Source: Cudoniella acicularis
Lineage: Eukaryota; Ascomycota; Leotiomycetes; Helotiales; Helotiaceae
Reading direction: 5' to 3'
Assembly (NCBI GenBank): GCA_013054445.1
Contig: JAAMPI010000030.1
Coordinates: 27,579 to 91,578, forward strand
DNA length: 64,000 nt
This document shows, piece after piece, positions 2,524 to 52,267 of this stretch. The first letter of the stretch is position 1; every line of letters starts with the position of its first letter. The position numbers were made by a program, and so were the translations under genes. Below the pieces are notes generated by a model. That model made no database searches. It worked only from the letters and a program-made list of their open reading frames with translations, and was not told the DNA's origin.

Positions 2524-3218
2524 CGTGCAACGAAGATTTACAGAGTGAAAGCCAGGGCGGAAGCCCCGAATGCGACCACGCGTAAAGTGGTTGAGGCTCA
2601 AGCGGTGAGTCGTATAAATAACGCCAATCATGAAGAAAGAAATGTCGAAAGACGCGTCGTGCAAATGCGGTGCAATGACCCACTTTCTGGTGTTTGCTTG
2701 GTCCTAAAATAGATATTTCGCTTGTTGTTCGAATCAAACCCCTTTTTCTCGTGTTAGTAGGAAGGCTGTGAAGAGGCCCTTCCAGCAATCTCGACATGGT
2801 CGCATATTTCAAAAATTGAGCCAATTAGTACGCAGATTTCGCGATCACGGCTAGGTGCATCAAGTGCTGTGCCAACCGGCGCTGGTGTTTTGACAAGGGG
2901 GGCCGCCGAAATTCGCCTGCCTTACCGCAGAACCCTGCTTACCTTGACCAATGCAGGATGAGGCGGTGTTGTACGGAGCGCAAGGAATGCGTTCGTGTAT
3001 GAGCATACACGTAAAGAATTTCCTCATACATATATGGGGGCTAGTGCCTTTCCACAGCTTTCCATCTTCACTTCACTTTTCCTCATCCTCAGCCGTCAAG
3101 TCAAAGTCAAGTCAAGTTCACTATACAATAATCACTCCGTCTCCTCTTCACTTCCAATCTTCTCCTCAACAACAAACACACATCCATCCTCTCGAAGTTA
3201 ATTCAAGCAACTGCCAAA
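2524..3218. other. intergenic and promoter of the small gene at 3219
   Basis: The first 400 bp hold only shadows. From about 3020 it looks like a fungal promoter/leader: a TATA-like ATATATGG at 3029-3037 and a long pyrimidine-rich CT/TC tract from 3050 to 3180 leading to ATG 3219 in a GCCAAAATGGCC context. A 5'-UTR of roughly 100-150 bases is inferred. Confidence 0.5.
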
Positions 3219-24423: not shown

Positions 24424-27400
24424 ATGGAGAACGCCGCCATGTCTGAGGCCACCCAACGGCTGATCGAAGACACTTTTGAAGAGCTTAGTTTCCAAAAGGT
24501 CCTGTTAGCATCTATCGACGACACAGTCACGAATCGCGAGGATGCCGAGGCAGAGGTTCGTCAGGAAATCAAGACCCTCGAGAAGCGAATAAAAGAACTG
24601 AAGCGAGGAGGTCGATCTTCCGCCTCTCAGTCTTCGACCGCAGCCTCGTCGACTTCACCGTCAAGAAACAGATCGAAACCTGCGCCCACCGCCAACGGAG
24701 CGGCATCAGGAACAGTGATGGAAGGCTATCAAGGTCAGTTGCTGCCTTTCTTTTTTCTTCTACCTCACAATCTTGTACCTCTCGACCTGCAACTACAAAC
24801 TCTCCCAATACTTCCGCCGAGATTTCTCCCAGACACTAACAAGATGACAGCCAGAGACCAATGGCTCCCTCGATCCACCGTCGATTCGATGGTGTCTACT
24901 CCCAACTCCCTGGACTCGTACCCAGAACTCCTGAGTCCCTCTCAAATGAACCTTCCCACACGAAAGCGATCGCACAGCAAACACCTGGATGGCAGTTTAG
25001 CACCAGCATATGGCGATAACAAGTCGAGGCGAACCTCTCCAAGCCCATATACGACAAATCCTTCAACACCTGGTGGTTCAAGTTCGGGGTATGGATACCC
25101 CTCATTTGGTGATGGTTACTTCGACCTCACTTTGTTTGTTCACAAATTCACTTTTCCCCTCTACTTTTTCTTGGATGACATCTGCCCAAATTCACGTTTC
25201 AAATGTGGAGACTGATTTGTTATTTCTTTAGAGAAGATGAAATGACTGCGTTTGACGACTTCATTCAGCAGCAGCAGAAGGCTCAAGAAGAAATCCGCAA
25301 GCGCGAGAAACTTGATGAAGAGTTTGCTCGTAGTCTCCAAAATGAGGCTCAGGGCTTTCGACCTAGCGATCAACCGCAAAGCTCAGCATATACGGCTTTC
25401 AGCCGGATGAGTGGGATGCGGCCTCCAGCATCTAGCGCTCCCGCTATGCCATCATCCAGTACACCACAGTTTGGACAACCATCTGTGAGAAAGCTTCCAC
25501 CGGGTTGGAACAGCACGCCGCCTAGAATGGCAGGTAGTGTTGTTAAACCTCAACCACAACTAATGAATTCGCGAGTGAAAGCAGAACAACCTTCAATGAA
25601 CAGTATGACATCTCTTGCAGCTTTCGGTGGCGACCAATCACGAGCTATACCTGGCTCTTTTCCAGATGACTCGTCGAATGCGAGTGATTCCGACATAGAG
25701 ATTATTCCACCTGAGGCTTTTAGGGACAATGGAAGACATTCTCATAGTGCAATGCAAAACAACCACCGCCTTGGATTTTCGCCCGCGGCCCAAACTGCTG
25801 GTGCTGCCACTCTCCGTCGGCTCGAGCAAGCAGCAACTAACGATGCTCTACAAATGGCCATGTACGGCGGTAGACAAGTTCCAAGCTGGATGTCCACTCC
25901 CGCACCAAGCAGCCCTTCATCCTTTGAATCTTCGATGAACTCACCCGGATCCGTTGGGATGGGAGTGTATGGTGCCAACATGTACCCTGGTGGCTCCTTC
26001 ATGGATGGTTCTTCAGGAGCAACTTTTGGTACTGCAGGCTCAATGAACAGTGCTAGTATGTATTCTGGATATCCTGGAAACAGCATGCAGCCATCGGTGT
26101 CAAGCTTTTCCTTCAACAACTTGCCAGGCGGCATGATGGCCGATGCCTATGGAAGCTTTCAACCTCTTGATCCCCTTGCAAATATAATACAGCATACCAG
26201 CAACCAGCAATTTGACAATTCAGCAGGATATTTCAATCGCTCATTTGGTCCAATCAGCGAGGAGATGGCCGAGAAAGTCGACTTCGTCATAAACGACCCC
26301 CGAAAAACTGGCGACGAAATCAGGAAGTTGCTTGAAAACATTCGACCTGATGTCGATTTACCAGCAGAGAATAGAGAAGGTACCCCTCCAGGTCTGAAGT
26401 ACGCACTTGTAAGTTCTACCAGGATCTCAGAGAATGCTTTTGTGTTGGAAGGGCAGTGGACAACTGCTGATGCGTTGATATAGTATGAGCATCAAAAGCT
26501 CGCTTTGACTTGGCTAAAATCGATGGAAGATGGCAACAATAAGGGCGGTATTCTTGCTGATGACATGGGACTGGGAAAGACCATTAGCGCTTTGGCTCTC
26601 ATGCTTAGTCGACCATCCAGCAATCCTGCACGCAAGGCAAGTTTTGTGGAATGATACTTGTTAAAGCATTTCTAACTGACAACAGACTAATCTTATTGTT
26701 GGCCCCGTCGCTCTAGTCCGTCAGTGGCAACGCGAAATCCAGCAAAAGATCAGTGCATCACATAAACTTAGTACACTCCTGTTACATGGTCCTAAAAATG
26801 GAAATTGGGACTGGGACAATATCCGCAACTACGACGTTGTCCTGACTACCTACGGAACACTTGGGCACGAATACAAACGCCACAGCGTTTTTATGGACGA
26901 GAAAAAGCGGACAGGTATTACGGAGATCGACTCGGGCCCACTCAAGAAGTTGTTTCCCCTCCTGGGACCGAAGAGTCTCTTCTATCGGGTTTTTCTCGAC
27001 GAAGCGCAATGCATCAAGAATAAAAGTACAATGGCTGCCCGTGCAGCCTGCAGTATCAAGGCCATATTCAGAATCTGCCTCACTGGAACTCCAATGATGA
27101 ATAATATTGGAGAGCTCTACTCTCTGATTCATTTTCTGAAGATCAAGCCATATAACGAGTGGCAAAGATTTAACTCGGTTTGTCCCCCCGCTCCTGCAAT
27201 TTACAATCTTCTTCACCCCGAGCTTGGATTCTTTGTGCTTTTTGTCGCATTGCTATTTAACCGCACATCTTAATATATCCCCCAATCCTTTCAAAATGCT
27301 AATGACTTGCAGGAATTTGGCGCCTTGACCAAACATGATGGCAGAGGGGACGTTGACAGAGCTATGCGGAAACTTCAAGCTGTTCTAAAAGCTATCCTAC

Positions 27401-33828: not shown

Positions 33829-33840
33829 AAAAAAAGAAAA
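33829..33840 (-). terminator. Pol III T-run terminator of the tRNA gene
   Basis: On the minus strand TTTT (33840-33837), one C, then TTTTTTT (33835-33829), starting 13 bases after the tRNA discriminator base. A longer T run follows at about 33825-33815. Confidence 0.75.
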
Positions 33841-33864
33841 TAGGCTGGGCTTTTGCCCTCGGAC

Positions 33865-33970
33865 GGAATCGAACCGGCAACCTCGTCATTACTAGTGACT
33901 GTTTATTTATTAGTATGATATTTAATAGCGATTAATAAATGATTACTAACCGCGCTCTACCATTGAGCTA
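33865..33970 (-). promoter_or_regulatory. internal Pol III promoter (A and B boxes)
   Basis: A box TAGCTCAATGG at 33970-33960 and B box GGTTCGATTCC at 33875-33865, both matching consensus. The insertion lengthens the gap between them to 84 bp, which TFIIIC tolerates in intron-bearing tRNA genes. Confidence 0.75.
33899..33950 (-). other. spliceosomal-type intron inside the tRNA gene
   Basis: 52 nt, AT-rich. Read on the minus strand it begins GTTAGT (33950-33945), contains a near-perfect branch site TACTAAT (33915-33909) and ends ACAG (33902-33899), with 10 nt between the branch A and the 3' end. These are the same signals and the same short length used by protein-coding introns in this window (for example a GTTAGT donor near 53756). 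Exact GT-AG removal rebuilds the tRNA anticodon stem with no base gained or lost. The segment GTTAGTAATCA resembles the exon segment ACTAGTAATGA, so a partial duplication of the anticodon loop is an alternative origin. Confidence 0.7.
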
Positions 33971-33977
33971 CGAGGGC

Positions 33978-35880
33978 TGTTTGGACTATTTGTGAAGAAA
34001 AAAATTGTTATTTTAATTTATATATTTAGTTGTGTGTGGGCACGGCCTGCTGACACGTTGCCACTTTTCCCCCGAAGCTGGCATCCAATCACGGAAATTA
34101 CGGCATAGAACCATGTATGTGTATTATAGCTTATGATTGGCTGTTTGTTTGCCTGCCACACGAACCTCTTAAAAGGGAACCGTCAAAATGAATTTTATTA
34201 TCAATCATTTGATTATCTTCACTTCAAATTTATGAACGCCTAACAACTTCTAATCTTCCTCCTTTCTTGTCAGATTCTCCCCTTCACACAAATATTGTAG
34301 GGTTAATTTTCCCTTGAACTCTCGGAGAAAACTCGAGCCAACCTCATCTGTGATAATTATTCACCCCGAGCCATGTCATGCTGATTTATGCAACTCCTAT
34401 CATTTTCTGTCCCATGTTCTACTATTTTCTATCGGTCTTTCTTTCACTGGCAATGCCATGTCTAATTTGCTCTTTATTAAAAATACTTCGCTTATCCGAT
34501 AATTTAATGATACATGTCGGGGGTTGCTTACAAGATCATTTTTGCTGTCAAAACTGGGATTTCAATTTGAGAATTTGACATATCCCTCCAGCGGTTTCTT
34601 GGGAATTCCTTCTATTCTTGCTGTGGTGAAAAGTATCGCTGACGGAAATGGTCACAAGATCAGCCAAATGAGAAGGTCACGTGGTTGCAAAATACATCAG
34701 GCATACCACAACTACCAGATTTTAGTTGTTTTAATACTAGTTATACCAATTCCATTCTCTCACTTACGATTCTGGAGTCGTTGCATAGCTACCTAGTTTC
34801 GCGGGGCTCGCTTAATTCCCCTAACCCCTTTTCTTATTTGAATATAGCAGGAGTGACTGGAATGCACGAGGTGGCCTAAGTTAGATCTTTTTCGATCAGG
34901 ATACAGGCGCGGGGACTTCTCGTGAACTCCGTTCTTACCTAGGTAGATCAAGTCCATTTGTGGCGACAGCCGAACATCTACCTATACTCATTTACACAAT
35001 ACCAATTCGAGGGTTCTCAGCGTTTGGATATCACGTGCCAGGAAAAGTTACTGTTATGACAGCGCGCCATGCCGCAAGAGAAATGCAACTTGAGATTGAA
35101 AATCCACTTTTGGGGGGAGGGGGGGGGGTTCCTGTTCGGACTCCCTGTGAATCGACTTGGGCTCCGTGAATGCAGTCGTGTAGAGGAGCGGTGATGCTAA
35201 TGATTAATCGCGTTCGATAACCAGTCAGGTTTCCTAACCGATCACACCTAACACTCCAAAATCCATGCGTTCCTCACCACCAAGGACTCCGCCAGTGCAG
35301 AAAAAGGGAGTTCTCTGTGTCTCTCGTTTCTTGTGCCAACTAAACTCTTGAATTGTCGATCTCGAAAACTTCAATTAATCTAAAAACCCCCACTCAACAT
35401 TCACGCCCCACACAATTTCCAGGGCCTCCTCTCACCCCTGCAACCATCTACGTCATCCCCACTTCCTTCCGCACGCAAATCCCTGATTTCTTCCCCGCGT
35501 TTTTACCCGTCACCCTCCTAAGGGGAAAAAAAATTTAAAACCACGATACAGGATTGGCAACAGCATGGCTCAAAAAAAAAAGCAAGAAGAGGTGTGCGCC
35601 TTTTATGCAAGCTCGTCATAAATGATGCACATGAATAGGTGATATGTGCATAGAATAGTACATATATGGCGGGGGGTTTCGGGAAGGTTTGATCAATCAA
35701 TATCGCTGCACAGAGAAATCACGACAACGACGATACCTAGCTAGCATTCCTGGAAAGTGCGACTCCTTCCCATTTACATCCGCAATAGGATTCGGCCTCG
35801 ATCTACAATCCAACAGTATCTCAAAGCGACAAATAAAAGAACAAAACAACCGCTCGCAGGCAAAGCAAGAATAAACAACC
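33978..35880. other. intergenic, nothing recognised
   Basis: CCAAT-like ATCCAATCA and GATTGG lie near 34083 and 34134, then pyrimidine-rich sequence to 34450. A frame from 34524 reads LGFQFENLTYPSSGF and another from 34960 reads LPILIYTIPIRGFSAFGYHVPGK. Both look faintly protein-like but I cannot tie them to a family. A G run sits at 35115-35131. 35689-35880 is the leader of the next gene. Confidence 0.4.
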
Positions 35881-51054: not shown

Positions 51055-52267
51055 CTACCAAATGCTCAAGGGAGTTGAGAAGCTCCCTAAAGCAGGTTCT
51101 CGGCTTCCCGAATATTCGTGATGTAATTCATCCAAAGCGGCGAAATGTACTGCGAACGTCAACCCTTTCTTGTTCTGAGCCTCTACTCGCTTCCAATCCC
51201 ATTCCTCAGTCGTCGCGCCAATCTCAGCGGTTCCGTTCGCTTCGACTTTAAGTGTCTCTGGTGTGACTTCTCCGGATGGCGTAGATTCCCCAGAAACACC
51301 AGTCATCGTAGCCCATCCCCCAGGTCGAGGCGGCAGTACTCCAGAAGCGTTCAAAAGAACTTCAGGGTGAATCGTCAACCTTCCCAGTTTTACCACATAC
51401 TTCGAGACGGCACTGGCAAAGATGGCTTTCTCATCAATTTCGGCGCTCTTTGCAGCACCGTTCACTTTCTTATATCCTTTCTTGCCGAGCCAGCTCCCAT
51501 CCTCAAGAATATAGGCGGAAGGCTTGACGGTGCCCTTTTTGACGAAATGTGTAACAATATAGATCCACTTGCGATCCCAGCATAGCAGCCTTGACCACAT
51601 TTCGTAGCCCTCGTATATCCCAATTTCTCTCTTGAAGCTACACATTACGCTTCCAAGCATAATGCCCCACTTCCCCAAGACTGGCTTGCCATCTTTGTCC
51701 AAGACTAACTTCGACCGACGGTTCTGTTGTAGTTCTGCAATGCCCGGCTGCAATAAAGCACAAACCATATGTGACCTTGTAACATCAAGATCTGAGAAGT
51801 AGGTGGAGTTGGATTTGTGGAAATTGTAATCACATTCGTATAAGGGTGAGCGACTTGTCGAGATAACTGGAGCGAAGAGCGCTGACGGAGCGAGAAGGGG
51901 AGGGATGTTGGGCTTGTTGAATAGACAATGCCTGAGTATGGCACCCCAAACTCGATACTGATCGTCATTAGTGCTGTGTGGATGAGAACGGAGCATACTG
52001 GAGGAAAGGCAGAGTCTCCCAAGACTGTTGCAAAATAGACCATGTGAGGAAATTTTGAGCTTTTCATAGACTTACATGCCACACAAATGGAAAGTTCTTG
52101 AAGTTAGCAAGAATCACCAGGAAAGCAGCGATCCTAGAGTACTTTCCTGGGCCCGTAAACGTGTTGAGAAGGAGAGTTCGTAATCTTAATCGAGATGCGC
52201 CAACGCCCACAACCAGCGAAGCAGTAAACAAGATGGATTTTAACGGAAGACGAGTCGCGGAAGCCAT
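51055..52267 (-). CDS. THEM6-like hot-dog fold (4HBT_2) protein
   Basis: Exons 52267-52076 and 51957-51055 join (donor GTAAGT, acceptor ATCAG with a CACTAATG branch site) to 364 residues. A hydrophobic N-terminal segment (about 10-27, LKSILFTASLVVGVGA) probably anchors it to a membrane. FKNFPFVWHYRVWGAIL leads into the hot-dog domain: SPLYECDYNFHKSNSTYFSDLDVTRSHM, where the D..LDV.R motif is characteristic of the family. It continues with GIMLGSVMCSFKREIGIYEGYEMWSRLLCWDRKWIYIVTHFVKKG. The C-terminal third contains the GGWATMTG linker common in fungal members. The usual hot-dog fold acts on acyl-CoA or acyl-ACP thioesters, but the family is poorly characterised and activity is not established. 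Confidence 0.8.

Follow-up and report, generated by a model that had tools for sequence, protein, structure and literature searches.

In textbooks, tRNA splicing, in which an endonuclease and a ligase deal with one intron at position 37/38, is held apart from the splicing of mRNA. According to PMC5832005, introns were known to be frequent in just two small structured RNAs, the U3 snoRNA and the U6 snRNA; U3 introns are present in Leotiomycetes, average 92 nt and sit almost exclusively in one stem-loop, and U3 paralogues occur both with and without an intron. Ectopic spliceosomal introns are also described in lichen rDNA, and yeast was found to excise them from Pol I transcripts (PMC8527467).

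The window, the whole stretch of 64,000 nucleotides of Cudoniella acicularis (Helotiales, Leotiomycetes) DNA that was analysed, holds a nuclear tRNA-Thr(AGU) gene interrupted by 52 nt. Judged on its sequence, this insert is very probably a working U2-type spliceosomal intron, one of many in the tRNA genes of this assembly. Such introns would resemble those of fungal U6 genes in being short GT-AG introns of the spliceosomal type within a small, structured transcript of Pol III, and differ from them in that the hosts are many tRNA genes with up to four introns each. With the U3 introns they would share a spliceosomal character, a small non-coding host RNA and the coexistence of paralogues with and without the intron; they differ from those introns, confined almost entirely to one stem-loop and 92 nt long on average, in being 50–61 nt long and in occupying 15 sites in tRNAs. 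The lichen introns likewise interrupt an RNA that is not a product of Pol II, although the hosts are Pol I rRNA genes there and tRNA genes here. Ordinary 37/38 introns occur in the same genes, many of the split ones having one as well, and are distinguished by position, length, ends and, by established knowledge, enzyme. Among the open-access PMC papers listed in literature searches, none announces spliceosomal introns in tRNA genes in its title or the opening of its abstract, and the relevant passages of PMC11782384, PMC6461891, PMC12730881 and PMC8393795 report none in nuclear tRNA genes. As far as we could see, the extension of structured-RNA spliceosomal introns to tRNAs is new.

A tRNA-Thr(AGU) Gene in Two Pieces

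The first-pass annotation, made from the letters alone, had described a tRNA-Thr(AGU) gene at 33854-33977 split by 52 nt after base 28. This description holds: despite the long insert, the minus strand at 33854-33977 scores 42.7 bits with the Rfam tRNA model, the exon limits agree, and excision restores the stem and loop. The features of the locus are these:

33951-33977, minus strand: tRNA-Thr(AGU) exon 1, 27 nt (bases 1-28: acceptor 5′ strand, D arm, A box TAGCTCAATGG)
33899-33950, minus strand: intron of spliceosomal type at 28/29, 52 nt, with 5′ site GTTAGT and 3′ site ACAG
33909-33915, minus strand: branch-point-like TACTAAT, 10 nt before the end of the insert, its A 11 nt from the intron 3′ end
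33854-33898, minus strand: tRNA-Thr(AGU) exon 2, 45 nt (remainder of the anticodon arm, T arm, B box GGTTCGATTCC, acceptor 3′ strand)
33829-33840, minus strand: Pol III-type terminator TTTT C TTTTTTT, 3′ of the tRNA
34008-34024, minus strand: upstream A+T-rich stretch TATATAAATTAAAATAA, about -47 to -31, a variant of an ATAAG-containing element

The GTTAGT start, the TACTAAT and the ACAG end all lie where they had been placed. Excising the insert gives a CGTCA/TGACG stem, a CTAGTAA loop and 72 nt of tRNA, named Thr(agt) by ARAGORN; the unspliced form is given as a nonsense Tyr(ata), and in its default form the program reports no tRNA anywhere in the window. The folding of the precursor is one point that counts against the spliceosomal reading: within 33925-33953 (minus strand), GCGGTTAGTAA, which joins the exon end to the intron start, pairs with TTATTAATCGC deeper in the intron in a predicted 11-bp hairpin that fully pairs the 5′ splice site. 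The unspliced RNA also folds better than its shuffles (z -3.84). Averaged over the 28 introns of this kind, 3.5 of the six opening bases are predicted to be paired, so burial of the 5′ site is not peculiar to the window gene, though it is no advantage.

Further copies were sought with the window region and the spliced tRNA as queries and with patterns for the anticodon arm and the 3′ acceptor. One more Thr(AGU) locus was found, on contig C1176, with both exons identical to those of the window gene (72 of 72 mature bases) and divided into five pieces: GCCCTC / GTAGCTCAATGG / TAGAGCG / CG / TCACTAG... Its inserts measure 55, 52, 51 and 51 nt, all four run from GT to AG, and one of the exons they separate is only 2 nt long. 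The 28/29 site is occupied in both genes, the two introns being identical in 40 of 54 aligned columns; at this site the C1176 intron could form a shorter helix, GGTTAGT with ATTAACC (by eye). The T stem common to both copies has one mismatch, C50-U64 (by eye).

Several intact Thr(AGU) copies elsewhere, which the first-pass annotation had named as one sign of a plain insertion-inactivated tRNA, were looked for and not encountered. The sequence and pattern searches found no intact copy, with the proviso that one split inside both probe words would escape them, and the exact anticodon-arm and 3′ acceptor patterns led to two tRNA loci, the window gene and the C1176 gene. A third exact occurrence of the anticodon-arm word, on C1340, was rejected as not a tRNA. 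In eukaryotes, ACU and ACC codons are decoded by tRNA-Thr(IGU); if the assembly is complete, the two split Thr(AGU) genes therefore cannot both be dead. The suggestion that the window gene might be a dead tRNA is thus disfavoured, given an identical second copy and no intact one found.

Split tRNA Genes across the Assembly

In the assembly (53.2 Mb, 1836 contigs), tRNA loci were gathered through T-arm patterns, mature-tRNA queries and the tRNA model, and then read by eye. The first T-arm pattern gave 410 matches against 352 in a reversed control, of which 100 were listed and 90 fetched or read; further patterns gave 65 against 14 and 60 against 30, and these lists were read in part. Fifty nuclear tRNA genes were read in this way, 22 of them split by a total of 28 inserts and 28 unsplit, counts that are lower bounds and do not represent a genome-wide share, since the lists were partly read and some of the unsplit genes came from the tRNA model, which favours them. 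The window gene itself is not among the genome matches listed for that model (62 of 2112 candidates scored). A few additional Gly tRNA genes are known as matches only. Three exact tRNA-exon patterns gave no match against viral contigs.

The first-pass annotation had proposed looking for similar inserts in other tRNAs, and 20 tRNA genes besides both Thr(AGU) genes have them. The split genes comprise Thr-AGU (two), Arg-ACG (two), Arg-CCG, Gln-CUG, Gln-UUG, Leu-AAG (three), Leu-CAA, Leu-UAG, Ala-UGC, Ile-AAU (two), Val-AAC, His-GUG, Glu-CUC, Lys-CUU (three) and Trp-CCA; the anticodon arm of the Leu-CAA gene on C249 is poorly resolved by eye. Among the genes seen, all three Leu(AAG), all three Lys(CUU) and the one Trp(CCA) are split. 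The 28 inserts fall at 15 sites and none at 37/38 (positions by eye), as follows:

Acceptor to D arm: 6/7 (three), 8/9 (three), 9/10, 11/12, 12/13, 15/16 (two), 18/19 (two), 19/20 (three), after 20 (two)
Further 3′: 26/27 (two), 27/28 (two), 28/29 (two), variable arm (two), 50/51, 57/58

Ten introns interrupt the A box region and one the B box. The latter is the T-loop intron of the Leu(AAG) gene on C1338 (L145, minus strand), whose B box is whole only once it is spliced. Pol III would be expected to dislike such interruptions, and they count against the spliceosomal reading.

What unites the inserts is their form. All 28 are 50–61 nt long and follow GTNNG...AG. The 5′ sites conform to a GTRNGT-like consensus, GTAAGT (10), GTAAGC (5) and GTTAGT (4) being commonest, and the 3′ ends are TAG in 19 and CAG in 9. 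A CTRAY motif with its A 9–14 nt before the 3′ end is present in 27 of the 28, the exception being the Ala-UGC intron, whereas in 5000 trials with shuffled interiors the number averages 1.11 and never exceeds 6. Each insert can be placed in one to five equivalent ways that leave the same mature tRNA, and never does more than one of these placements have GT-AG ends. Such a placement is possible in 28 of 28, against 0.06 of 28 expected from the introns' base composition, an optimistic figure in that exon limits were set by eye; for Arg-ACG, an intron-free paralogue of identical mature sequence gives the exon boundary without such judgement.

Five protein-gene introns in the window, mapped with relatives' proteins by rough alignment and forming a small set kept by judgement, are 54–135 nt long, with GT-AG ends and CTRAY 11–14 nt from the 3′ end; introns of an SNF2 gene model in low-complexity coding stretches were discarded. 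The notion that the inserts are introner-like copies finds no support: when 12 of the 28 introns were concatenated and compared with the genome at E <= 0.1, they matched only themselves.

Mature Sequences and the Integrity of Split Genes

With the inserts removed, ARAGORN recognizes a tRNA in 22 of 22 split genes and the expected anticodon in 20, the misses being Val, which becomes Ala(agc) because the program picks a different 37/38 intron, and Glu, given without an anticodon. From the unspliced forms it recovers a tRNA in 11 of 22 and the expected anticodon in 3. All nine paralogue pairs compared have identical mature sequences (72 to 81 bases), and at shared sites the introns are identical in 34/63 to 46/59 aligned columns (54–78%), the flanks varying likewise. 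The three Leu(AAG) genes have one mature sequence and different intron pairs, in the D loop and T stem on C168, in the variable arm and T loop on C1338, and in the D loop and variable arm on C1659. An intron-free Arg-ACG paralogue on C1496 is identical in mature sequence, and paralogues without an insert also exist for Ala-UGC, Ile-AAU and His-GUG. This combination of shared and private intron sites speaks for introns gained and lost over time rather than in one recent burst.

The intron-free paralogues of these four tRNAs, together with the C-U mismatch in the T stem of both Thr copies, could be taken to mean that split genes are dead, insertion-broken copies and that intact copies do the work. 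We consider this very improbable. It would have to accommodate the failure to find any intact Thr(AGU) and the fact that the Leu(AAG), Lys(CUU) and Trp(CCA) genes seen are split without exception, as well as mature sequences that stay identical across copies while introns and flanks have diverged, a pattern for which concerted evolution offers an alternative reason. Nor would insertions at random show GT-AG ends with a suitably spaced branch point 27 times out of 28.

The Inserts and the tRNA Splicing Endonuclease

In archaea and red algae, tRNA introns that lie outside 37/38 and are cut by the endonuclease are known. This precedent, and the ordinary 37/38 intron kept in many split genes, lend some colour to the idea that the inserts are unusual substrates of the tRNA splicing endonuclease, recognized through an archaeal-like bulge-helix-bulge or by a relaxed enzyme. 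The 37/38 introns of the same genes nevertheless look quite different: the 13 that could be delimited are 12–29 nt long and none has GT-AG ends (ten of the split genes stay outside this comparison, having no such intron or one without delimitation). The inserts differ from them in length and ends, and have a branch point. A bulge-helix-bulge, sought as a four-pair central helix with two 3-nt bulges at the junctions, occurs in 0 of 28 where 0.55 would be expected by chance, which says only that there is no enrichment. Taken together, these points leave the endonuclease an exceedingly improbable agent for the inserts, and removal by the spliceosome the preferred reading.

Transcription Signals and Other Structured RNAs

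Among the 16 split genes with at least 27 nt of downstream sequence, 14 have a run of at least four T within 60 nt. Upstream, at -60 to -16, 13 of the 19 split genes and 17 of the 27 unsplit ones contain ATAAG; shuffled upstream stretches give a mean of 4.1 and a maximum of 11 against this total of 30 of 46. The window copy reads AAAATAAC, without ATAAG, and its A+T-rich stretch is a candidate promoter element. An external promoter element of this kind would account for the tolerance of broken A or B boxes.

The same kind of upstream element is found at a U6 gene. One U6 copy (C1226, L142, around 25895-25998) has two introns similar to the tRNA inserts, both with GT...AG ends and the first lacking CTRAY, and another in the assembly (C522, L141, 38755-38854) is uninterrupted and rather different in sequence. 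The proposal that the window insert is spliceosomal accordingly emerges strongly supported, by the second Thr(AGU) gene, the 20 further tRNA genes and the split U6. The 5S rRNA genes, also transcribed by Pol III, count on the other side, with no insert in 33 matches (47 of 2276 candidates scored, in a search that favours intact genes). The two unlike U6 genes and the 1836 contigs might also suggest that the split genes belong to one organism and the unsplit ones to another, or that the inserts are assembly errors, but this has next to no probability when split copies on separate contigs agree exactly in their mature tRNAs and in the sites of their introns, when the upstream ATAAG is common to split and unsplit genes, and when a window protein (51055-51996, minus strand) shows 100% identity, along the aligned stretch, with the Cudoniella acicularis hypothetical protein G7Y89_g856.

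Two other kinds of tRNA-like locus were noticed during the survey. One is a multi-copy family with acceptor, D and T arms and a structured insert of about 80–100 nt on an extended anticodon stem, sharing GGGGTTC...TTGAGGGGTTCACCCTC, an upstream CAACAAACAAAGCAAACA and T-run ends, with inserts that are not GT-AG (L024, L027, L033, L048, L080, L092, L104, L106, L113, L115, L158, L170, L178, L179, L181, L182, L185, L187 and L188); it seems to be an undescribed Pol III RNA or a SINE-like family. The other is a short tRNA-like sequence in a nuclear contig (L073; C162, around 3027-3039) that resembles a mitochondrial tRNA and is possibly a transferred mitochondrial piece.

A Proposed Order of Processing and Its Consequences

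From how the genes are built, from their splice-site and branch-point motifs and from the unchanged mature sequences, we infer splicing, a polymerase and an order for the two splicing systems. The precursor tRNA would be transcribed, probably by Pol III because of the upstream A+T-rich element and the T-run end. The spliceosome would then excise one or more GT-AG introns of 50–61 nt from it, the tRNA body could fold once these are gone, and the tRNA endonuclease would come last, taking out any ordinary 37/38 intron.

On balance it seems probable that translation here relies on the spliceosome for part of its tRNA. For Thr-AGU, Leu-AAG, Lys-CUU and perhaps Trp-CCA, every copy would be spliceosome-spliced on Pol III precursors, including those of the four-intron gene with its 2-nt exon and of the gene with a split B box, and two machineries would act in succession on one tRNA. 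Standard tRNA finders miss genes of this kind: ARAGORN found none in the window, and the window gene was unlisted in the tRNA-model search.

Paralogues with and without introns in one genome also constitute a natural system for studying how genes without a protein product acquire introns. If the spliceosomal reading is true, the spliceosome acts on another class of essential, folded and probably Pol III-made transcripts, and the supply of tRNA becomes sensitive to splicing. Overall, the evidence suggests that in Cudoniella acicularis the spliceosome helps to make tRNA.
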